36,378 nt of DNA from Spirochaetae bacterium HGW-Spirochaetae-2 (GTDB lineage: Bacteria; Spirochaetota; Spirochaetia; Sphaerochaetales; Sphaerochaetaceae). The translations under genes and the position numbers were made by a program. Location of the stretch: NCBI GenBank assembly GCA_002839355.1, contig PGXW01000029.1:22770-59147 (forward strand), written 5' to 3'. Below the pieces are notes generated by a model, which worked only from the letters and a program-made list of their open reading frames with translations, was not told the DNA's origin and made no database searches. This document shows positions 14,211 through 36,378 of the stretch, one piece after another. Within the stretch, counting starts at the first letter, position 1. Each line of letters opens with the position of its first letter.

Positions 14211-14263
14211 TTGCTGCAAATATTAGGAATGTGGCAAATAGTACAAACAAAAGGAGAATAGAC

Positions 14264-15331
14264 ATGAAAAGAACTTTGATTGTAGCACTCTTGGTGCTCG
14301 TGTGTGGAGGGGCTCTGCTGTTTGCCCAGGGGCAGGCTGATGGTGCCTCAACGAAATTGTGGCCAAGGACCCAGCCGGTTGTGACCGTTGGTTTCGGTGC
14401 CGGTGGTGGAACAGATACCGCGGTACGGCCTGTTATCGCCAAGATGGAAGAATACTTGGGCGAAACCATCAACGTAGTCAATATGGAAGGTGCCTCGAGC
14501 GCAGTTGCCGCACAGCACGTGCTCAACCGTCCTGCCGATGGATACAGCATGTTCGCGACCGGTTCCGCCCCAATCTCGGGATTCCGGGTGATGGGCACCG
14601 CAAACTCAAGTTGGACCGATTGGGTCTCATGGCATCCGTTCGTGGGCCCTGCGGCACTTATTGTCAGGGCAGATTCTCCCATGAAGACTTTCGATGATGT
14701 GGTTGCTTATCTGAGAAGCAAGAAAGTCAATTTTGGAATCTCCGGATTCGGAGTTGGCCCACACGTCCTGGTTGAAGCCATACTCGGCATCGCCGGAGTA
14801 TCGTCACCAAACTATGTGACCGGTGGTTCCTGCAGGAATGCCGCTGTCGCCTTGATTGCAGGAGATGTGGATGTTGCCATGTCGACATTCTCTTCCGTGG
14901 TGGATTTCGTGAAAGCCGGCCAGTTGCGCGCAATCGCAGTGACGACTCCTTCCACCTACCAAGTCGACGAGACTCTCAAGATCGACTCCATCACAGCAGT
15001 TCTCCCAGGAAGCGAAAATATTCCACAACTATCGGAAACCTGGCCGATCTTCATGAGAAGGGATGTTCCCCAGAAGTATATCGACAAGTTGACCGAAGCG
15101 TTCTTGTGGGCAATCGAACAACCGGAAATCGTTAACTATGCCAAGAAGCAGGCACTCGACATTGCCGGATACTATGGCGAGTCGGCAGACAGGTTCCTGT
15201 CTTTCTCCGAAGCTGGATATGCATGGACTTTGTACGATGCGGGATTGGCCAGCAAATCACCGGCAGAATTCAACATTCCAAAACTCAGTAACTGGAATTG
15301 GGATGTCGAAAAGGCAAAGATTTCGAAATAG
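14264..15331 (+). CDS. Tripartite tricarboxylate transporter, substrate-binding protein (TctC/Bug family)
   Basis: The extracytoplasmic solute receptor of a TTT-family transporter, 355 residues. A signal peptide MKRTLIVALLVLVCGGALLF is followed by a cleavage region around AQGQADG. The mature part has the Bug-family VTVGFGAGGGTDTAVRPV near the N-terminus and the NYVTGGSCRNAAVALIAGDVDV segment where carboxylates are bound. AAGGAG lies seven bases before the ATG at 14264. It is first in the operon with the two membrane subunits. A strong hairpin after it likely raises its mRNA level relative to the membrane genes. Substrates of the family are di- and tricarboxylates and sugar acids; the ligand here is not deducible. 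Confidence 0.92.
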   Translation: MKRTLIVALLVLVCGGALLFAQGQADGASTKLWPRTQPVVTVGFGAGGGTDTAVRPVIAKMEEYLGETINVVNMEGASSAVAAQHVLNRPADGYSMFATGSAPISGFRVMGTANSSWTDWVSWHPFVGPAALIVRADSPMKTFDDVVAYLRSKKVNFGISGFGVGPHVLVEAILGIAGVSSPNYVTGGSCRNAAVALIAGDVDVAMSTFSSVVDFVKAGQLRAIAVTTPSTYQVDETLKIDSITAVLPGSENIPQLSETWPIFMRRDVPQKYIDKLTEAFLWAIEQPEIVNYAKKQALDIAGYYGESADRFLSFSEAGYAWTLYDAGLASKSPAEFNIPKLSNWNWDVEKAKISK

Positions 15332-15396: not shown

Positions 15397-15882
15397 ATGG
15401 AAGACGTGAAAAAGGGTAGTGTCTCCGATTTCATCATGAGCATCCTGTTGCTGATTTTTGGAATCGCGCTGATAATCTCATCTCTTAACATGAAGGTATT
15501 CAATACATTCCTCGATGCTCCCGGGTTCTTCCCCATGCTTCTTGGAATCATATTCATATTCCTGGGACTGATGATGTTGATTTCTTCGATCCGAAGGAAA
15601 GGGCCCCAACAGATGGGACATGTGTTTGGAAAAGCCAACTTGGGTGCATTCTTCAAACACATCGAATTCAAGCGGGTCATGATTTTGATCGGCTTGATGG
15701 TAGTGTACATTTTTGGGCTGATAGGAAGAATGCATTTTGCGATTGCCACAGCAATCTATCTGTTCTGTACCATGTGGTTCCTGAAATCGACCGGCTTGGT
15801 AAAGAATATCATTATTTCTGTTGTGACTTCGATTGTGATCAGCGTGGTATTCAGATTCGTATTCAATATCCCCCTCCCATAG
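15397..15882 (+). CDS. Tripartite tricarboxylate transporter, small membrane subunit (TctB)
   Basis: A 161-residue membrane protein with four predicted transmembrane segments, at about residues 13-31, 44-64, 94-110 and 115-155 (the last perhaps split in two). The size, poor conservation and place between tctC and tctA are typical of TctB. It forms the membrane complex with TctA. A weak ribosome site AAAGGTAG precedes the ATG. It lies 65 bases after tctC, across the intercistronic hairpin, and 23 bases before tctA. Confidence 0.88.
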   Translation: MEDVKKGSVSDFIMSILLLIFGIALIISSLNMKVFNTFLDAPGFFPMLLGIIFIFLGLMMLISSIRRKGPQQMGHVFGKANLGAFFKHIEFKRVMILIGLMVVYIFGLIGRMHFAIATAIYLFCTMWFLKSTGLVKNIIISVVTSIVISVVFRFVFNIPLP

Positions 15883-15905
15883 ATGGTTGGAAAGGAACAA
15901 GCTGT

Positions 15906-17453
15906 ATGGAAGCAATTTTTCGAGAAATAGCACTATTTGGTGGTGCTTTTATGTCAGTCTTCACGCTTACCGAGCTCATGGTGGTGATGATGGCGACAAT
16001 ACTGGGAATTATCGTAGGGGCCATACCCGGACTGACCGCGACTATGGCATTGGCACTACTGATCAATCTCACCTATGGAATGAACCTGAATATTGCCTTG
16101 GCCTTCCTGTTGGGAGTGTATGTGGGTGCGGTCATGGGTGGTTGCTACTCGGCGATCATGGTGAATATTCCGGGAACACCATCCGCCGCCGCCACTGCCC
16201 TGGACGGGTTTGTGCTTGCGAAGAGAGGCGAAGGCGGTCTGGCTATCGGAACAGGAATCGTAGCATCCTTCTTTGGCATGCTGATGAGCATTCTCCTGCT
16301 GATATTCCTCACACCTTTCCTCTATAAGATCGCATTGAAATTCGGACAATGGGAGTACTTCCTGCTGTCGGTATTCGGTATCATGATCTGCGGGAATCTC
16401 TCGACAGGAAAAGATCCCATAAAGGGATGGGTAGTCGGATTCCTTGGGTTCTTCACTGCGATGATTGGACTGGACAAGATCTATGCATATCCCAGATTTA
16501 CATTCGGATCGCTTGAACTGATGGGTGGTATTGCCTTGATTCCCGCTCTTATCGGCGTATTCGGTATTTCGGAGATACTCTTTGTTCTCCAGGAGAAGAT
16601 CCCGTATAAGATCGAGGGAAATATCGGACGGGTCCTGCCTACGAAAAAGATCATGAAGAGTATCCTTCCCGCCGCCATCCGCTCAGGTATCATCGGCGTT
16701 GGAATCGGTGCCGTCCCGGGTGCGGGTGAAGATATCGGCGCATGGGTTTCGTATGATATCGGCAAACGGCGTTCGAAACATCCCGAATTGTTCGGGAAGG
16801 GAAGTTACGAGGGACTCGCCTGTGCAGAGACCGCCAACAACGCAGTTGTAGGTGGAGCCATGATACCCTTGTTGACATTGGCTATTCCAGGAAGTCCTCC
16901 GGCAGCTATGTTTTTGGCTGCGATCTGGTTGCATGGAATCAAACCGGGACCGATGTTGCCTGTGGAGCAACCGGGATTCCTCTATCGGGTGGCGATCCTT
17001 CTTTTCTTTGCTACAGTATTCATGCTCGTCTGGGGTTTGATCATGGCAAAGCCGATGGCCAAGATCCTCAAGGTCAAACGTGAGATCCTCATGCCGATCA
17101 TAGTCCCGTTGACAGTCATCGGTGCATTCGCGGGTGGCGTACGTGGGTTCGATATCGGTGTCATGTTCGTTTTCGGACTTATCGGGTATGTACTGCGCAA
17201 GCTGGATTATCCGATGGCGCCTTTGGTGTTGGGTATCATTCTTGGTCCGATGGCTGACGTGAGTTTCAGGCAAGCATTGATGCAAGGTCAGGGCAATCTG
17301 ATTCCCCTACTGGGACGGCCTGTCGGTATCGTTCTGATGTTCGCAATTGCTTTTATTGTCGTTACAGGTATCAAACGTGCGATGGACTATTCCAAGGAGC
17401 AACGGGAATTGATTCTCGCGCAACAAAATTCGGAGCAGTCAAATGGGAATTGA
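15906..17453 (+). CDS. Tripartite tricarboxylate transporter, large membrane subunit (TctA)
   Basis: A 515-residue polytopic membrane protein that forms the sodium- or proton-driven translocation channel of the TTT transporter. Family segments include GAIPGLTATMALALL near residue 38, NIPGTPSAAATALDG, GAVPGAGEDIGAWVSYD and AIPGSPPAAMFLAA; these repeated GxPG motifs are the hallmark of TctA. The ATG at 15906 follows AAAGGAA by eight bases; the frame extends upstream into tctB but without a ribosome site. The 3' end overlaps the short-chain dehydrogenase start by 11 bases, so transport and metabolism genes are coupled. Confidence 0.95.
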   Translation: MEAIFREIALFGGAFMSVFTLTELMVVMMATILGIIVGAIPGLTATMALALLINLTYGMNLNIALAFLLGVYVGAVMGGCYSAIMVNIPGTPSAAATALDGFVLAKRGEGGLAIGTGIVASFFGMLMSILLLIFLTPFLYKIALKFGQWEYFLLSVFGIMICGNLSTGKDPIKGWVVGFLGFFTAMIGLDKIYAYPRFTFGSLELMGGIALIPALIGVFGISEILFVLQEKIPYKIEGNIGRVLPTKKIMKSILPAAIRSGIIGVGIGAVPGAGEDIGAWVSYDIGKRRSKHPELFGKGSYEGLACAETANNAVVGGAMIPLLTLAIPGSPPAAMFLAAIWLHGIKPGPMLPVEQPGFLYRVAILLFFATVFMLVWGLIMAKPMAKILKVKREILMPIIVPLTVIGAFAGGVRGFDIGVMFVFGLIGYVLRKLDYPMAPLVLGIILGPMADVSFRQALMQGQGNLIPLLGRPVGIVLMFAIAFIVVTGIKRAMDYSKEQRELILAQQNSEQSNGN

Positions 17454-27692: not shown

Positions 27693-28916
27693 TCAGGAAA
27701 AACGGGCGATCACAGCGTCGACCGAATTCTCGATCGAAGCGGGTAGGGAAACCCTTCCCTCGAACACCGCCATGTCCTTGAATCCTGTTCCGGTCAATAG
27801 AACGCATACCGACACATCATTGCCGTACCGCTTCTTCAACAGATCGGCATCCTTGCGAATCCCGGCCCAAGCACAGGCCGCCGCAGGCTCGACAAATATT
27901 CCCGCCTGGCTCGCCAGTTCCATCTGTGCATCGAGTATCTCGGCATCGGTCACTTCGGTGGCCCACCCGTCGGTCTCGTTGATATATCGCACCGCCATGC
28001 GGCCGTTGGCAGGTGAGGAGACGCTGATGGAATCGGCACGTGTTGTTGCCGACACGTTGGTGAACGAACCGGTTTTCCAAGCTTGTGCAATGGCATTCGA
28101 CCGGGTCGACTGCACACAGACCACCTGGGGAATCCTGTCGATCAAACCGGCAACATGCAGGTCGATGAACCCCTTGCATACACCAGCGTAGATGCAGCCG
28201 TCACCGACAGGAACATATACGACTTCAGGAACCTTCCGGCCTAGTTGGAGGAACAATTCGATGGATACGCTCTTCTTTCCCTCGACTGTCATGGGGTTGT
28301 ATGCCGTGTTGCGGTTTATGCCTCCGAAGCGCTCTGTGTAGGCGATCGACAATGCGAAGGCATCGTCATAAGACCCCTTCACCGGTACCACGGTGGCTCC
28401 GTACAGCACGCTCTGCATCAATTTGTTCACCGGTGCGGTCTCGGGAACGAACAATACGATCTCCAATCCATATGCAGCTCCGGCACAACTCATTGCCGCT
28501 CCAGCATTACCGGTCGAAGCCAAGGCGATCTTGTTCTCCCCGTGCGCAATCGCCTGGGCCGCGATCAGTTGCGAAGCCCTATCCTTGAAAGACCCGGATG
28601 GCAATGCGCTGTCGAGCTTGATCGAAAGGTTCGGCAATCCATAGCGTTCACGCAACCGCTTGGGATAGGCAATGGGGGTCTCTCCGATAGGGAAACACTC
28701 CTTGTCGGGAACCTGGTACGGGAAGAAGTCGTAGAAGGAGAGGTCCTGCTTAGTGGACAATGCCTTCGCATCGTTCTCATCGAGACGTACGACAAGGTTG
28801 CCTCTGCGGAATTCATTCGCATCTGTAGCCAAGGCAGCACATTCGGGACAGGTATACATGACCTCTTCGGAAACATATTCGTTGCCACAATCGTTGCACA
28901 CATACTTGAAACGCAT
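27693..28916 (-). CDS. thrC: Threonine synthase-like PLP enzyme
   Basis: A 407-residue fold-type II PLP enzyme. The N-terminus has a zinc-ribbon-like pair CNDC and CPEC; the PLP lysine lies in SGSFKDRAS; STGNAGAA binds the phosphate, and LLTGTGFKD is near the C-terminus. These features fit threonine synthase, which converts phosphohomoserine to threonine. An alternative is a related lyase serving the adjacent purine-breakdown genes, since it lies downstream of a second PLP enzyme in the same cluster. GGAGG precedes the ATG by seven bases. A terminator after the upstream gene may lower its expression. The gene symbol rests on family only. Confidence 0.8.
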   Translation of the reverse strand: MRFKYVCNDCGNEYVSEEVMYTCPECAALATDANEFRRGNLVVRLDENDAKALSTKQDLSFYDFFPYQVPDKECFPIGETPIAYPKRLRERYGLPNLSIKLDSALPSGSFKDRASQLIAAQAIAHGENKIALASTGNAGAAMSCAGAAYGLEIVLFVPETAPVNKLMQSVLYGATVVPVKGSYDDAFALSIAYTERFGGINRNTAYNPMTVEGKKSVSIELFLQLGRKVPEVVYVPVGDGCIYAGVCKGFIDLHVAGLIDRIPQVVCVQSTRSNAIAQAWKTGSFTNVSATTRADSISVSSPANGRMAVRYINETDGWATEVTDAEILDAQMELASQAGIFVEPAAACAWAGIRKDADLLKKRYGNDVSVCVLLTGTGFKDMAVFEGRVSLPASIENSVDAVIARFS

Positions 28917-28982: not shown

Positions 28983-30455
28983 CTACAGTAGCCCGACTTC
29001 CTTGTTGAATGCCTCGATCATCTCGTCGATCTTGTCGGCAAGCGCCGGAAGCTGGGACCAGTAGCTCTTGTCGTACCACTGGGCATTGATTTCCCCGTAG
29101 GTCTTGCCTTGCTGCTCTACCCACGTGTAGTACTTGAGGTTGTGGACGCGCAAGCGATCGTAGTAACCGAGCTCCTGCATATTGTCCAACCCCTGATGGA
29201 GCAGGCTTGCGGCGTGGACCTTTGCCGCATCGATGGCGGTGAAGGGACCCTGCTGTTCGGTGAGTTCGTCCAGGCGGGAGGTGTACATTTCGGAACTGTC
29301 GGTAAGGATGGTGAACACCACATCGTCCTCATCCATCTCATAGAACTTGGCCATCTTGATAGCGCTGAGCATGTTGCCCACACCGCTGATACCGAAGAGC
29401 GACAAATTCGCGATGTCGGCATCGGAGATACCGATTCCCTTGAGGTATTCGAGACCTGCCGGCTCATTGAACAAACGGTAGATGTCCATGCAATCCTGGT
29501 CGTCGATCGCAGTGATCATGTCGGTATTCTTGACATTGTGGATCCAGGGAACGTGCTTGTCGCCGATTCCCTCGATGCGGTGGCCGCCGAATCCGTTGCG
29601 GAGCAAGGTCGGGCACTGCAAGGCCTCACTGGCTGTGATCTTGATGTTCGGATAGGTGTCCTTCAACTTGTCTCCGGCTGCGAGTGTTCCGCCTGAACCG
29701 GTGGACGATGCGTACCCACGCACATTCTCGGCCTTTACGCCAAGCTTTTCGAGGACCTCGACCATGGCGGCTCCAGTGACCGTGTAGTGCCAAAGATAGT
29801 TCTCGAACTTGTCGAACTGGTTGAAGATAACGATCGACGCACCGCGTTCGGCATCGAGTTCGTGGCACTTGTCGAAAATCTCCTTGACGTTCGATTCGCA
29901 ACCGGGAGTCGCGATGATTTCGCCGGCGATCGACTTGAGCCAATTGAACCGTTCCTGGCTCATCTCCTCGGGCAGGATCGCGATCGATTTGCACCCGAGC
30001 AACGCACTGTTGTAGGCGCCGCCACGGCAATAGTTGCCGGTCGAGGGCCAAACGGCCTGTTGGTTCACGGCATCGTAGTTGCCGGAAACGAGGGCAGGGG
30101 CCAGACATGCGTAGGTGGCACCGACCTTGTGGACACCGGTTGGGAACCACTTGCCGACCAATGCGAGTACGCGGGCCTTGGTGCCGGTTATGGCTTTGGG
30201 AATCTCGATATAATTGACCTCGCCGAAGACTCCACCTTTTTCGACTGCTTCATTTTTCCAGTTGATGCGGAACAGGTTTTCGGAGTGGACGTCCCACAAT
30301 CCCATACCGCCCAGGGCCTTCTTGACCTTCCCGGGAGTTTTGGATGGGTCGACCATTTGTGCGAAAGTCGGCAACAACACGCCCTTTTCGCGGCAGAGCT
30401 TGACGTTTCTGGCACGAACCTCTTCGTTCATGTTCAGATTGATCAGATTATACAC
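28983..30455 (-). CDS. PLP-dependent fold-II enzyme of unknown specificity
   Basis: A protein of 490 residues related to the cysteine synthase/threonine dehydratase superfamily. The segment FPTGVHKVGATYACLAPALV is the likely PLP-lysine region, STGNYCRGGAYNSALLGC the phosphate/substrate loop, and GYASSTGSGGTLAAG a glycine-rich phosphate clamp. A long C-terminal part (DDQDCMDIYRLFNEPAG onward) is family-specific. The start is GTG at 30455, with GGAGG seven bases upstream; ATG at 30431 is less likely. In the related E. coli locus, a 2,3-diaminopropionate ammonia-lyase (YgeX, also fold II) sits beside ygeY. This gene may fill an equivalent role here; that is inference. Confidence 0.78.
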   Translation of the reverse strand: MYNLINLNMNEEVRARNVKLCREKGVLLPTFAQMVDPSKTPGKVKKALGGMGLWDVHSENLFRINWKNEAVEKGGVFGEVNYIEIPKAITGTKARVLALVGKWFPTGVHKVGATYACLAPALVSGNYDAVNQQAVWPSTGNYCRGGAYNSALLGCKSIAILPEEMSQERFNWLKSIAGEIIATPGCESNVKEIFDKCHELDAERGASIVIFNQFDKFENYLWHYTVTGAAMVEVLEKLGVKAENVRGYASSTGSGGTLAAGDKLKDTYPNIKITASEALQCPTLLRNGFGGHRIEGIGDKHVPWIHNVKNTDMITAIDDQDCMDIYRLFNEPAGLEYLKGIGISDADIANLSLFGISGVGNMLSAIKMAKFYEMDEDDVVFTILTDSSEMYTSRLDELTEQQGPFTAIDAAKVHAASLLHQGLDNMQELGYYDRLRVHNLKYYTWVEQQGKTYGEINAQWYDKSYWSQLPALADKIDEMIEAFNKEVGLL

Positions 30456-30766: not shown

Positions 30767-33700
30767 ATGGGAGACATCATGCGACCCGTTCCCTTCGAGG
30801 AACTCATCAATAGGATTTTTTCCGAATATCGCCAATCGAATACCATATTCGGAATTCACCAGGACCAATTCTGCACACCTGATCCCAGCAAGGGAATCAC
30901 CGTATTCGGCCAGAAGTGCGCGACCCCGCTCGGGCCTGCCGCAGGACCCCATACCCAGCTTGCCCAGAACATCGTCGCCAGTTATTTGGTCGGCGGTAGG
31001 TTCATGGAGCTCAAGACCGTCCAGAAGATGGATACGCTCGAAATCGACAAGCCTTGTATCGATGCCCGTGACGAAGGATACAACGTGGAGTGGTCGACGG
31101 AATATACTTTGCCGAAAGCCTACGAGGAATACGTGAAGGCCTGGGTACTGTTGCATGTGATCGAGGCATTGCTCAACGGCGGCAAATTCGAGAAACCTTC
31201 GTTCATCTTCAATATGAGCGTCGGATACGACCTCGAGGGAATCAAGACACCCAAGATGCAGACCTTCATCGATTCCATGATAGACGCATCGACCTCGGAA
31301 TCCTTCAGCAATTGCATCGAATCCCTTGCGGCGATCATTTCCGAAGGTGCCTTCCTGGAAGGAACCGCCTGGGAAGGACTGGAAAAGAAGCTTTCCGGGT
31401 TGCCTGCCAAGATTTCCAGGACTATCAGCCCGTCGGTGACCATCAGTACCATGCATGGTTGTCCTCCCCATGAGATCGAAGCCATCTGCACCTACATGCT
31501 CTCCGAGAAGAAGCTCAATACGTTCGTGAAATTGAATCCGACATTGCTTGGGTTCGACACCGTCCGTGCCATCCTGGACGACCTCGGCTACAACTATGTC
31601 GGCCTGAAGCGCGAATCCTTCGACCATGACCTGCAGTATGGCGATGCGGTCTCAATGCTGCACCGGTTGGTCGATCTCGCTGCCTCCAAGAACCTCGGAT
31701 TCGGCGTGAAGCTTACCAATACCCTTGGATCGGTGAATGACCAGGGAGTACTTCCCGGTGCCGAAATGTACATGTCCGGACGCACCTTGCTGCCGATCAG
31801 CACCGGTGTCGGCGCATTGCTTTCCAAGGAATTCGGGGGAAAACTCCCCATTTCCTACAGCGGCGGGGCGAATGCCACCACCGTGCTCGATATCTTCGAG
31901 ACAGGAATCCGTCCCATAACGGTGGCTACCGACATGTTGAAACCGGGCGGTTATGTGCGGATGAAGCAGATGGTCGGAATCCTTGAGCAGAAGGGCACGA
32001 CCTGGTCGGCCAAGCAGATCGATGTCGCCAAACTGGAGAAGTTGGCTGCCTCGGCCCGCCAGCGCGAGAGTGTGCAGAAGGATTTTCGAGGGACGGACGA
32101 AGTGACCGTACCCGGCAAATTGCCGTTGACCGACTGTTATGTCGCTCCTTGTGTACAGGCTTGCCCGATCCACCAGAATGTACCCGACTATATCTATCTG
32201 GTCGGGAAAGGCCGGTACGCCGACGCGTTGGAAGTCATCTACGATACCAATGCCTTGCCGAACCTCACCGGTTACATTTGCGACCACCAGTGCCAATACC
32301 ATTGTACCCGACTCGATTATGAAGGGACGGTGCAGATTCGCGAGATGAAGAAGATCGCCGCCGAACAGGGCTTCGCCGAATATATCAAGCGTTGGGAAAA
32401 GCCCGAGGATGCCACCGTGAAGGCTGCCGTAATCGGTGCGGGCCCCGCAGGACTTTCGGCGGCCTACTTCCTGGCACGCTCTGGCTTCGCGGTTACCGTT
32501 TTCGAACGTGAGCAGAATGCCGGGGGAGTCACCCGCAATGTCATTCCGGGATTCCGGTTCCCTGAAAGCGCCTTGCAGGCCGATATCGATTTCATTGCCG
32601 CCCATGGGGTGGCATTCAAATTCGGCGCCGAACGCAACGAAGTCACGGTCGATGCCCTGCATACCGCCGGGTACGACCACCTGTTCTATGCGATCGGTGC
32701 GGAAGTCGACAATGAGATTCCGCTCACCGGGGATCGTAGCCGTATCCGTCCTTCGCTGCATTTCCTCAATGCCTTCAGAAAGGATCCCTCCAAGCTCTCC
32801 CTGGGCAAGAAGGTTGTCGTTGTCGGTGGCGGAAATACTGCCATGGACAGTGCCCGGGCTGCGACACGGGTTCCCGGAGTCGAGGAAGTCTCGGTAGTCT
32901 ATCGGAGGACCAAGAAGGAGATGCCCGCCGATCTCGAGGAATACGACAATGCGGTCGAGGAGGGCGTCAAGTTCCTCTTCCTCACCAATCCGGAATCGTA
33001 TGGTGCCGACGGTACGCTCGTGTGCCGCACGATGGCGCTGGGCGAGCCCGATGCCTCCGGCAGACGTAGGCCGGTTGCGACCGACGAGACCGTGTCCATG
33101 CACGCCGATGCCCTGATCACTGCGATCGGCGAGAAGGTCGACGGCGAGGCGCTGTCGTGGTTCGGTGTTCCCCTCGATGCGAAGGGATGGCCAATGGTCG
33201 ATGCCAAGACGCTCGAATCTACCGAGAAGGGTGTATATGTCCTGGGTGATGCGCAGAGTGGACCGTCCACAGTGGTCAGATGCATCGCATCGGCCCGCAA
33301 GGCTGTGGAGGCTGCGATCGATTCGGTGCTGGGTTCGCTCGAGGAAGACGACCACCATGGGCATGATCATGGGTGCGGATGTGGACATGACCACGACGGC
33401 GACCATGAATGCGAATGTGGAGACGACCACGAGCACGCGGACGGGTGCTGTTGTGGCGACGATGAGGATGATGAAGAGTACACCGATGAGGAGCTCGACG
33501 AGATCGAAGCGGAGGAAAATGCCTTCTTCGGAGAAATCCGGGCAAAGAAGGGCAAGCATGTCGCTCCCGCCCCATTGGATGCCGCTGTGAAGGCTTTTGC
33601 CGAGAGGGAAGCTTCCCGATGCCTCGAGTGCAGCTATATTTGCAACAAGTGTGTTGAAGTCTGCCCGAACAGGGCCAATGTCGCGATCGATATGCGCCTG

Positions 33701-34033
33701 CGTGCAGACCTGTTCGACCACCCGTACCAGATTGTCCATTTGGATGCCTTCTGCAATGAATGTGGCAACTGCGCGACCTTCTGTCCGTGGGAAGGAGCTC
33801 CGTATCTCGACAAGTTGACGGTATTCAGTCGTCAGGACGATTTCGAGAATTCGGAGAATACCGGATTCTTGATGGATGACGATTCGGTCCTTGTCCGCAT
33901 CGATGGCGACGTTTCACGGCACACCGTGCTTTCCGACGGGACACTCGATGGGGATTTGCCCGAAGAGGTTTCGTCCATCATTGAAGAGATTATCGTAAAC
34001 CACGCCTACCTGCTGGGTTCGGTGGGTGAATAA
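30767..34033 (+). CDS. ygfK: YgfK-type iron-sulfur flavoprotein oxidoreductase
   Basis: A 1088-residue protein. N-terminus MGDIMRPVPFEELINRIF matches E. coli YgfK. Domains in order: a dihydroorotate dehydrogenase-like barrel (about 1-420), a cysteine cluster segment CYVAPCVQACP and CDHQCQYHC (about 455-515), a GltD-like FAD/NADPH region with GAGPAGLSAAYFLARSG near 555 and GGGNTAMD, and two C-terminal 4Fe-4S motifs CNKCVEVCP and CNECGNCATFCP. YgfK is linked to anaerobic purine/uric acid breakdown. Between the flavin and ferredoxin parts, residues 862-897 form a His/Cys-rich stretch, unusual for the family, followed by an acidic segment. AAGGAG lies 11 bases before the ATG. It heads ygfK-ssnA-ygeY. 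Confidence 0.93.
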   Translation: MGDIMRPVPFEELINRIFSEYRQSNTIFGIHQDQFCTPDPSKGITVFGQKCATPLGPAAGPHTQLAQNIVASYLVGGRFMELKTVQKMDTLEIDKPCIDARDEGYNVEWSTEYTLPKAYEEYVKAWVLLHVIEALLNGGKFEKPSFIFNMSVGYDLEGIKTPKMQTFIDSMIDASTSESFSNCIESLAAIISEGAFLEGTAWEGLEKKLSGLPAKISRTISPSVTISTMHGCPPHEIEAICTYMLSEKKLNTFVKLNPTLLGFDTVRAILDDLGYNYVGLKRESFDHDLQYGDAVSMLHRLVDLAASKNLGFGVKLTNTLGSVNDQGVLPGAEMYMSGRTLLPISTGVGALLSKEFGGKLPISYSGGANATTVLDIFETGIRPITVATDMLKPGGYVRMKQMVGILEQKGTTWSAKQIDVAKLEKLAASARQRESVQKDFRGTDEVTVPGKLPLTDCYVAPCVQACPIHQNVPDYIYLVGKGRYADALEVIYDTNALPNLTGYICDHQCQYHCTRLDYEGTVQIREMKKIAAEQGFAEYIKRWEKPEDATVKAAVIGAGPAGLSAAYFLARSGFAVTVFEREQNAGGVTRNVIPGFRFPESALQADIDFIAAHGVAFKFGAERNEVTVDALHTAGYDHLFYAIGAEVDNEIPLTGDRSRIRPSLHFLNAFRKDPSKLSLGKKVVVVGGGNTAMDSARAATRVPGVEEVSVVYRRTKKEMPADLEEYDNAVEEGVKFLFLTNPESYGADGTLVCRTMALGEPDASGRRRPVATDETVSMHADALITAIGEKVDGEALSWFGVPLDAKGWPMVDAKTLESTEKGVYVLGDAQSGPSTVVRCIASARKAVEAAIDSVLGSLEEDDHHGHDHGCGCGHDHDGDHECECGDDHEHADGCCCGDDEDDEEYTDEELDEIEAEENAFFGEIRAKKGKHVAPAPLDAAVKAFAEREASRCLECSYICNKCVEVCPNRANVAIDMRLRADLFDHPYQIVHLDAFCNECGNCATFCPWEGAPYLDKLTVFSRQDDFENSENTGFLMDDDSVLVRIDGDVSRHTVLSDGTLDGDLPEEVSSIIEEIIVNHAYLLGSVGE

Positions 34034-34047
34034 GGAGTAGCACGACC

Positions 34048-35385
34048 ATGTCAATCACCGTATTTGCCAATGCCCGTGTAGTGCAGACCATGCCACCGTT
34101 TTCCGTACAGGAGAAGGTGGATGTGGTAGTACAGGACGATACTATAGTTGCTGTCGGCAGGAATGCCGGTAGCGCATATCCCGGAGCCAAACAGTTCGAT
34201 GCCTCGGGCAAGACGATTATCCCCGGGATGGTTTGTTCGCACCACCATTACTATTCGGGTCTTTCCCGTGGCATGCTGGTACAGGCCGGTCCCCAAAACG
34301 ATTTCATACAAGTGCTCAAGGAGTGGTGGTGGCGGCTCGACCGCGCACTCGATGAGGAAGCGAACTATTATTCCAGCCTGATCTGCTCGATCGACGCCAT
34401 AGCGGCGGGTACGACCTCCTGCATCGACCACCATGCCAGTCCCTCGCATATCGACGGATCGTTGGAAACCATTGCGAAGGGCATGCGGGAAGTCGGAGTC
34501 AGGGGTGCGACCTGCTATGAGATCACCGATCGCAACGGTGGTATGGAAGAGGTGAAGGCCGGAGTACAGGAAAACATCGCATTCGCAAAAAGTGTCGATG
34601 CCGAGCGCAAGGATGGGAAGAAGCCCCTGGTCGAGGCAATGATCGGCGGACACGCGCCCTTCACCATTCCCGACGAGGGTCTGGCAATGATGAAGGATGC
34701 TTGCGACAGCACCGGAAGGGGAATCCACCTGCATGTCGCGGAGGACAAGTACGATACTGTCCATTCGCACCACATGTACCACAAGGATATCATGGACCGT
34801 CTCGACAGTTTCGGTCTGCTTGCCGACAATACGCTGCTGGTGCACGGATTGTGGCTGAACGACAGCGAGATTGAGCTGCTCAACGAGCGCAAGAGCTTTT
34901 TGGCACACAATCCCCGCAGCAACATGAACAACCATGTCGGGTATTGCAAGCGATTGCGCCAGGTCGACCGGTTGGTCCTGGGCACCGACGGATGCGGCGG
35001 AAACATGTTCGAGGAGATCAAACTGGCGTTCTTCAAGCACAAGGACAACGGAGGTCCCTGGTGGCCAGGCGATTTCGCCACTGTGCTCACCCGTGGAAAC
35101 AAGATACTGGAGCGGTATTTCGGTGAACAGTTCGGCCGGGTCGAACCTGGATACAAGGCGGATTTGACCATACTCGACTACCAGAGCCCCACTCCGTGGG
35201 TCGACGGGAATGCCGCTACCCACCTTGTGTGGGGAACCAGCAGCAATTGTGTCGATTCGGTCATGGTCGAGGGAAACATGGTCATGGAGCACCGTTCCTT
35301 CGGGTTCGATGTAGAGGAAATATATGCGAAGGCGGCCGAGGTCGCCCAACGGGTCTGGAAGAAGGTCGATACCATCGCCCCCTGA
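34048..35385 (+). CDS. ssnA: SsnA-type amidohydrolase (putative aminohydrolase)
   Basis: A 445-residue amidohydrolase-superfamily protein of the SsnA subgroup. Metal ligands appear as SHHHY near residue 65, HLHVAED (about 231), LLVHGLWL (about 270), and GTDGCGGNMFEE (about 313). The superfamily hydrolyses C-N bonds in purine- and pyrimidine-like rings. SsnA is genetically tied to ygfK and ygeY in purine catabolic clusters. AAGGAG precedes the ATG; the gap from ygfK is 14 bases, so the two are one operon. It does not match the guanine deaminase pattern closely enough to assign that activity. Confidence 0.92.
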   Translation: MSITVFANARVVQTMPPFSVQEKVDVVVQDDTIVAVGRNAGSAYPGAKQFDASGKTIIPGMVCSHHHYYSGLSRGMLVQAGPQNDFIQVLKEWWWRLDRALDEEANYYSSLICSIDAIAAGTTSCIDHHASPSHIDGSLETIAKGMREVGVRGATCYEITDRNGGMEEVKAGVQENIAFAKSVDAERKDGKKPLVEAMIGGHAPFTIPDEGLAMMKDACDSTGRGIHLHVAEDKYDTVHSHHMYHKDIMDRLDSFGLLADNTLLVHGLWLNDSEIELLNERKSFLAHNPRSNMNNHVGYCKRLRQVDRLVLGTDGCGGNMFEEIKLAFFKHKDNGGPWWPGDFATVLTRGNKILERYFGEQFGRVEPGYKADLTILDYQSPTPWVDGNAATHLVWGTSSNCVDSVMVEGNMVMEHRSFGFDVEEIYAKAAEVAQRVWKKVDTIAP

Positions 35386-35449
35386 ACCGGACGGGAAACA
35401 AGGAAACAACTCCCAAGAATGGGAATTAGGAAAAGCCAAGGAGCAAACA

Positions 35450-36378
35450 ATGGGAATCCAAGAAGACATCAGATTGAAATCGGCGGAATATCGCCAGTAC
35501 ACGGCAGAGAACCTTTCCAAGATGGTGAAGGTCAAGTCCTACAGCAGCAAGGAAGAGGACGTATGTCGTTTGATCGTTGAATTGTGCAAGGAAGCGGGGT
35601 TCGACGAAGTTCGAATCGACGGATTGGGGAGCGTGATCGGTCGTGTCGGATTCGGCCCGAAGCAACTCGCGTTCGATGCCCATATAGATACTGTCGAAGT
35701 CGGGAATCTCGACAACTGGGATTTCGATCCGTTCAGTGGCGAGATCAAGGACGGCAAGGTCTTCGGTCGCGGAACATCGGACCAGAAGGGCGGGGCCGCA
35801 TCCATGATCACAGCTGGCCGCATCCTCAAGGAACTCGGATACGGTGGTGAATACAGTGTCTATTTCACCTTCACGGTCATGGAAGAGGACTGTGACGGCA
35901 TGTGCTGGAAATATTTGATCGAGGAAGAAAAGTTCAAGCCCGACTTGATCGTCTCCACCGAACCCACCAGCTGCCGCCTATATCGCGGTCACCGTGGACG
36001 CATGGAGATCAGGGTCTTCCTCAAGGGTGTCTCCTGCCATGGAAGCGCTCCGGAACGTGGTGTCAGCGCAGCCTACAAGGCAGCCCGAGCGGCATTGGCG
36101 ATCGAACAATTGAACAAGGACCTCCAGCCCGATGAGGACAAATTCCTCGGGAAAGGTACGATCACTGTTTCCCAGATCGACGTTCGCGGACCTTCGCAGT
36201 GCGCTGTCGCAGACTATGCGATGCTCTATTGCGACCGCCGCTTGACCTGGGGTGAGGATGCCGACCTTGCCATCGGCCAAGTCCGCGAGTATATCGCCAA
36301 GGCAACCGGCGACGACCCGAAGGATATCAAGGTCGAGATGCCCATGTACGAGAAACTCGGATGGACCAACAAGGACTA
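35450..36378 (+). CDS. ygeY: YgeY-type M20 metallohydrolase (partial, runs off window)
   Basis: The frame opens at ATG 35450, after AAGGAG with six bases of spacing, and stays open to the window edge, so at least 309 residues are present. M20 peptidase metal motifs are visible: FDAHIDTVEVGNLDNW, GRGTSDQKGG, FTVMEEDCDG and a dimerisation domain with GVSCHGSAPERGVSA. YgeY is the M20 member of the ygeW-ygeX-ygeY purine cluster; related enzymes cleave carbamoyl- or acyl-amino acid bonds. It follows ssnA by 64 bases, which include a small TCCCA-AGAA-TGGGA hairpin. The C-terminus is missing only because the window ends. Confidence 0.93.
   Translation, partial: MGIQEDIRLKSAEYRQYTAENLSKMVKVKSYSSKEEDVCRLIVELCKEAGFDEVRIDGLGSVIGRVGFGPKQLAFDAHIDTVEVGNLDNWDFDPFSGEIKDGKVFGRGTSDQKGGAASMITAGRILKELGYGGEYSVYFTFTVMEEDCDGMCWKYLIEEEKFKPDLIVSTEPTSCRLYRGHRGRMEIRVFLKGVSCHGSAPERGVSAAYKAARAALAIEQLNKDLQPDEDKFLGKGTITVSQIDVRGPSQCAVADYAMLYCDRRLTWGEDADLAIGQVREYIAKATGDDPKDIKVEMPMYEKLGWTNKD

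Follow-up and report, generated by a model that had tools for sequence, protein, structure and literature searches.

A variable, putatively metal-binding His/Cys-rich insert in the YgfK flavoprotein of Sphaerochaetaceae

In the anaerobic breakdown of uric acid by Escherichia coli, the reduction of yanthine is carried out by the NAD(P)H-dependent flavoprotein YgfK; its assignment to this ring-reducing step is recent, and in vitro the reduction product is reported to form only when YgfK and SsnA are present together, in an assay containing ZnCl2 (PMC12507026). In the spirochaete Spirochaetae bacterium HGW-Spirochaetae-2, a window of 36,378 nucleotides, the whole stretch of DNA analysed here, includes a ygfK gene whose product contains a short segment crowded with histidine and cysteine. 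What is this segment, how widely does it occur, and what might it do? The initial annotation regarded it as foreign to the usual YgfK, likened it to metal-storage or metallochaperone tails and proposed that it either supplies nickel, zinc or iron or serves as a flexible linker. The literature searched on YgfK/ssnA and on His-rich inserts yielded nothing on such an insert. The features discussed are collected in Table 1.

Table 1 Features of the ygfK region, with positions counted from the first nucleotide of the window
Feature	YgfK residues	Position	Strand	Remarks
ygfK		30767..34033	+	1088 aa; TIGR03315 1430 bits (cut-off 835.3)
Helix preceding the insert	836-863	33272..33355	+	AlphaFold2 model
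Predicted disordered segment	860-902	33344..33472	+	Sole stretch of at least 3 residues with pLDDT < 50
His/Cys-rich insert	862-897	33350..33457	+	9 His and 7 Cys in 36 residues; pLDDT < 50
Three units of 36 bp (12 residues), each starting CxCG		33374..33481	+	CGCGHDHDGDHE, CECGDDHEHADG, CCCGDDEDDEEY
Helix past the insert	907-928	33485..33550	+	AlphaFold2 model; ends near a KKG motif common to other YgfKs (alignment)
C-terminal [4Fe-4S] ferredoxin-like part	951-1007	33617..33787	+	Weak Fer4-type matches and invariant cysteines
ssnA, amidohydrolase partner		34048..35385	+	14 bases past ygfK; TIGR03314 570.9 bits (cut-off 455.5)
ygeY, M20-type hydrolase		35444..36376	+	Gene cut by the window end; NF009555 360.7 bits (cut-off 321)

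In the profile search, TIGR03315 aligned to the protein over model positions 1-1012 of 1012, and Pfam matches to Pyr_redox_2 and Fer4_20 were found. The cluster cysteines are invariant in an alignment of 60 homologues, those of the ferredoxin-like part being C952, C955, C959, C962, C966, C996, C999, C1002, and C1006. E. coli YgfK (b2878, TIGR03315) is alike in the whole protein, in its domains, in the cluster cysteines and in having ssnA adjacent (NC_000913), whereas its linker comprises 54 residues with a single His and no Cys, compared with 105 residues, 10 His, and 7 Cys in the YgfK of the window. Adjacency of ssnA was seen in 23 of 23 named Sphaerochaetaceae loci versus 20 of 35 outside this clade, counting only loci with a long enough C-terminal YgfK match (enough sequence). 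The genome itself (G000, 3.6 Mb) encodes selD, which is in keeping with the selenium-linked name of the gene cluster; no finding links the insert to selenium. Divergent from ygfK, on the minus strand, lie two genes for PLP-dependent enzymes (27693-28916 and 28983-30455; threonine-synthase-like and cysteine-synthase-like), a pair that is kept beside ygfK in many Sphaerochaetaceae loci. Within about 6 kb, no match to ygeX, ygeW, or hyuA was found in the loci bearing this pair, which may take the place of the diaminopropionate steps in the known pathway. Farther off, the window carries TctA and TctC, parts of a tripartite tricarboxylate transporter (15774-17453 and 14231-15331).

Read in the YgfK frame, the insert is DHHGHDHGCGCGHDHDGDHECECGDDHEHADGCCCG; it holds 8 Asp, 3 Glu, and 8 Gly besides the His and Cys residues, whose number is exactly that counted in the initial annotation, and the acidic tract described behind it is present as well. 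The remaining 1052 residues of the protein contain only 20 His and 23 Cys. At least 16 His+Cys in 36 residues has a binomial probability of 2e-13, or 2e-10 over all windows of this size, and in 2000 shuffles of YgfK the 36-residue maximum never rose above 10; in the window's stop-free frames of 60 or more codons, the runner-up 36-residue stretch reaches 11. The insert is not an assembly slip, since it also occurs in an independently titled assembly, HGW-Spirochaetae-4 (L166), whose YgfK is 99% identical. Its three CxCG units start at positions 33374, 33410, and 33446 and agree pairwise in 24, 20, and 20 of 36 bases; Tandem Repeats Finder reported no repeat over them, so the units are degenerate. 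The same period recurs among the distinct linkers, 26 of 88 intervals from one CxC unit to the next being of 12 residues, the most frequent value. CxC is found in 63 of 84 inserts, HxH in 62, and the longer motif CxCGHHH in 21.

An AlphaFold2 model of YgfK built from 60 aligned sequences (mean pLDDT 90.2, pTM 0.86) predicts the insert to be a disordered loop lying where the FAD/NAD(P)H part meets the C-terminal Fe-S part. Together with the domain matches, this model upholds its earlier placement between the flavin/NADPH part and the C-terminal ferredoxin domain, where it is tethered about 50 residues ahead of the C-terminal cluster cysteines. The location of CxC and CCC motifs between two redox domains could be read as an additional redox site, that is, an extra Fe-S or thiolate cluster passing electrons, but the Cys spacing is not fixed, the segment is predicted to be disordered, and several members have His without any Cys (L010, L026, L031), so that we regard such a site as highly improbable. 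Of the two roles proposed initially, the flexible linker agrees with the predicted disorder; the framing of linker and metal supply as alternatives does not hold, because an insert that is predicted to be disordered and is also conserved in its ligands can be both.

The distribution of the insert was followed in sequences from the genomes of the family, a sample of the phylum, and named genomes scanned from a wide range of phyla. A TIGR03315 score above the cut-off was obtained for 123 of the 139 family genomes, the deficit being due in part to gene pieces on broken contigs, and 96 of 392 genomes drawn from the phylum matched at E <= 1e-100. Removal of sequences with a thin core reduced the 195 aligned sequences to 189, and removal of duplicates to 170, 87 of which belong to the Sphaerochaetaceae clade; this clade sample consists of the sequences fetched and is no random draw. 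Exclusion of one linker cut by a contig end (L070) left 86 clade linkers. At least 8 His+Cys are present in 56 of these 86 distinct linkers and in none of the 83 outside the clade. The homologue alignment thus bears out the view that the insert is not usual in YgfK and, where its occurrence across all YgfK proteins had been named as the contrary finding, restricts it to one clade. A general feature of YgfK is ruled out by these counts, as is an oddity of one protein, the insert being found family-wide in Sphaerochaetaceae. By sequence comparison, the insert is a lineage trait of this family, fast-changing and hypervariable in length: the median linker length is 90.5 residues in the clade versus 53 outside, with a range of 55-127 within the clade, and clade linkers run from no Cys to 22. 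In 18 of the 86, the whole linker has fewer than five His+Cys, i.e., the insert is weak or absent.

In a midpoint-rooted tree, the linkers are short in the sequences that branch first within the clade (L058, L067, L076), and the expansion of the linker is therefore probably later than this split. Two spirochaetes outside the clade (L216, L224) have His-rich acidic linkers that lack Cys units and are nearly free of Cys; the genes around their ygfK are similar, and with a third sequence they form a separate branch of the tree. These linkers may reflect an early gain that was later lost in other lineages, or the trait may have arisen twice. The enterobacterial and Photobacterium YgfKs (L190-L205 and E. 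coli) are nested inside the spirochaete sequences, which suggests transfer between groups. Two further peculiarities concern the gene as a whole. One ygfK in a genome of three contigs (L047, G080:C1:938308-941505) is interrupted about halfway along its otherwise open frame by a single in-frame TGA, for which decay, a sequencing error, or recoding are possible explanations. In four genomes (G450, G436, G201, and G482; L128, L129, L138, and L126, respectively) the ygfK open frames comprise 1279-1543 codons compared with the normal 1000-1100, the excess likely being open upstream sequence, with a fusion as the other possibility.

Conservation of the His and Cys residues was examined in 37 sister pairs, 36 of which entered the identity test (L058/L067, without an insert, was omitted). 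When these pairs were aligned by identity alone, His/Cys columns were identical in 251 of 350 cases (0.72), compared with 421 of 769 for Asp/Glu (0.55) and 190 of 469 for other residues (0.41); the bootstrap 95% interval for the difference between His/Cys and Asp/Glu is 0.10-0.24. In 20 pairs, pN/pS was lowest at His/Cys (0.062), compared with 0.097 over the remainder of YgfK and 0.206 at Asp/Glu. These values were obtained on a BLOSUM62 alignment that favours His/Cys matches, though the identity-only test, free of this bias, agrees with them. When Asp and Glu are lumped as one class, this class is as well kept (0.75) as His/Cys (0.73), so part of the selection acts on charge. A loop produced by slippage that expanded Asp and His codons, its product being unselected, might be suspected from the long HD run in one linker (L027), from the span of clade lengths, and from the duplicated look of the units; in the window's insert, however, synonymous codons are mixed (CAT 5, CAC 4; TGT 4, TGC 3), there is no simple tandem repeat, and the insert as a whole has a pN/pS of 0.19 in the 20 pairs, all of which makes pure low-complexity drift scarcely credible.

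More weight has to be given to a plain flexible acidic spacer between the redox domains, in which His and Cys would be passengers without a metal role. Acidity is the most constant trait of the clade linkers, 83 of 86 having at least 18 Asp+Glu versus 3 of 83 outside, and acidic linkers with hardly any His/Cys do exist (L030, L044, L037). Passenger residues, however, would not be expected to be the slowest-changing ones, as His and Cys are, and the composition of the 84 inserts also speaks against this reading, with 12.9% His and 12.1% Cys but only 0.9% each of Asn and Tyr, so that His is 14 times commoner than either. A single base change turns Asp codons into those of His, Asn, or Tyr, and two are required for Cys; mutation alone therefore does not give the excess of His, and Cys reaches its share despite the greater distance. 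We consider the spacer unlikely as the whole explanation, and the ligand conservation and the excess of His, both read from sequence, argue for selected metal binding. A universal role is counted against by the 18 members with few His+Cys and by one pair with a core identity of 0.79 whose inserts hold 0 and 27 His+Cys (L051 and L069, respectively). The ligands are thus not needed by YgfK everywhere in the clade, and E. coli YgfK works without them.

Among known systems, the closest parallel is the C-terminal tail of SlyD from E. coli and Helicobacter pylori, described as a variable, unstructured, and metal-binding segment in which His, Cys, Asp, and Glu abound (PMC7055735). The insert resembles this tail in its richness in the same four residues and in its predicted disorder, and the likeness to metal-storage or metallochaperone tails noted initially is to this extent sustained. 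It differs in its place, as a loop inside a catalytic flavoprotein rather than a tail at the C-terminus of a prolyl isomerase, and its metal binding is putative; no FKBP-type prolyl isomerase domain is among the Pfam matches listed for YgfK. The insert is therefore not a SlyD, but by analogy it may work in a SlyD-like manner. With the metal-binding N-terminus of HypB (CXXCGC) and the His-rich regions of HypB and UreE, described in the same source (PMC7055735), it shares CxCG-like thiol units and runs of His; unlike in HypB, no GTPase domain is among the Pfam matches listed for the window's YgfK. Zinc transporters and heavy-metal ATPases likewise carry His-rich loops beside a folded body, but they are membrane transport proteins, unlike the soluble reductase YgfK. 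Dihydropyrimidine dehydrogenase and NfnA-type flavoproteins (1h7x, 8oh5, 9n5u) have the FAD/NAD(P)H part and the N-terminal Fe-S part in common with YgfK, and the sequence match to the solved relatives (NfnA, StnABC-type chains, dihydropyrimidine dehydrogenase) stops by residue 859, ahead of the insert. Metallothioneins are small free-standing Cys-rich proteins, and a segment inside a protein of 1088 residues is not one of them.

The same parallels raise the question of nickel, since storage or delivery of this metal in the manner of SlyD, HypB, or UreE tails would suit a composition like that of the SlyD tail (PMC7055735). The nickel enzyme systems searched for are, however, scarce: the own genome has no HypB above the cut-off and no urease alpha subunit, the latter is absent from all 138 family genomes searched, and HypB exceeds the cut-off in 17 of 138, none of them in the genus of the window. 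For 79 distinct genomes out of the family's 139, linkers could be set against HypB; the 12 genomes with HypB and the 67 without it showed no difference in linker His+Cys (P = 0.39), and at least four His were found in 4 of the 12 compared with 46 of the 67, the wrong direction for nickel. The supply of nickel suggested at the outset is accordingly disfavoured, and we rate it as very unlikely.

Similar stretches were also sought in other proteins. Around ygfK, among 1310 stop-free frames of at least 150 codons from 80 named loci, the filter for similar frames was passed by 19 YgfKs and one antisense frame. A proteome-wide habit of the own genome was rejected, as matches to HDHD, HxHxHxH, and CxCG mostly look non-coding when read in frame; these searches covered loci for 15 of 27 and 30 of 40 matches plus five regions and, in a third set, seven chosen regions. 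The exceptions are an amidohydrolase with a brief run of HxH (L268) and a His-rich linker (HTHTDHGHSHDH) past an N-terminal CxxC domain (L276, G000:C68:84900-86900) in a putative heavy-metal P1B-type ATPase, which provides an own-genome example of a His-rich loop beside a folded body. The paralogous flavoproteins L002-L004 of the own genome have no such loop in their reading frames; a further paralogue (L005) stands outside this comparison, its longest frame being the neighbouring glutamate-synthase-like one.

Taken together, free length, kept ligand chemistry, and predicted disorder match the pattern of SlyD tails, and on these grounds we consider it probable that the insert, acidic, disordered, and rich in His and Cys, binds metal, originated in the YgfK of Sphaerochaetaceae, and serves there as a local metal buffer on a tether. 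Its length would rise and fall by duplication and loss of units of about 12 residues, CxCG(x)HxH, and selection would hold the His and Cys ligands while leaving the length free. By analogy with SlyD-type tails, the segment would bind several soft or borderline divalent ions. Zinc appears the most likely of these because the products of the neighbouring genes, ssnA and ygeY, are members of hydrolase families that depend on metal, often zinc. The buffer would be placed where the FAD/NAD(P)H and ferredoxin-like parts meet.

Where such a buffer would be used is a more tentative matter. The likeliest use, which we put forward as a possibility rather than an expectation, is beside SsnA, the amidohydrolase that YgfK requires for turnover and that is encoded directly downstream. 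The data do not compel delivery to SsnA, as ssnA also adjoins ygfK in lineages without the insert, and we are more doubtful still of the bolder version, an enzyme with a built-in metallochaperone. In that version the loop would take up zinc and pass it on to SsnA, reductase and hydrolase thereby receiving their metal together. The main alternative use would be to keep stray thiophilic metal off the [4Fe-4S] clusters of YgfK itself. A loop confined to this task, scavenging Zn, Cd, or Cu without delivery to any partner, would profit from its tether close ahead of the cluster cysteines and from Cys-rich units (CCC, CxC) suited to soft metals, and the putative ATPase with its His-rich linker in the own genome fits such a setting; yet the cluster cysteines occur in the YgfK of all aligned lineages and the loop in one only, and the related flavoproteins L002-L004 do without it, which leaves a mere shield with a low probability.

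For a tethered metal-binding segment, the 86 natural linkers of the clade constitute a ready series for studying the evolution and action of disordered metal-binding segments. If the built-in metallochaperone were true, the repeated duplication of a 12-residue unit would have produced a natural series of metal capacities, and if metal handling were tied to the yanthine step, the use of urate by gut and sediment spirochaetes would depend on their metal supply.
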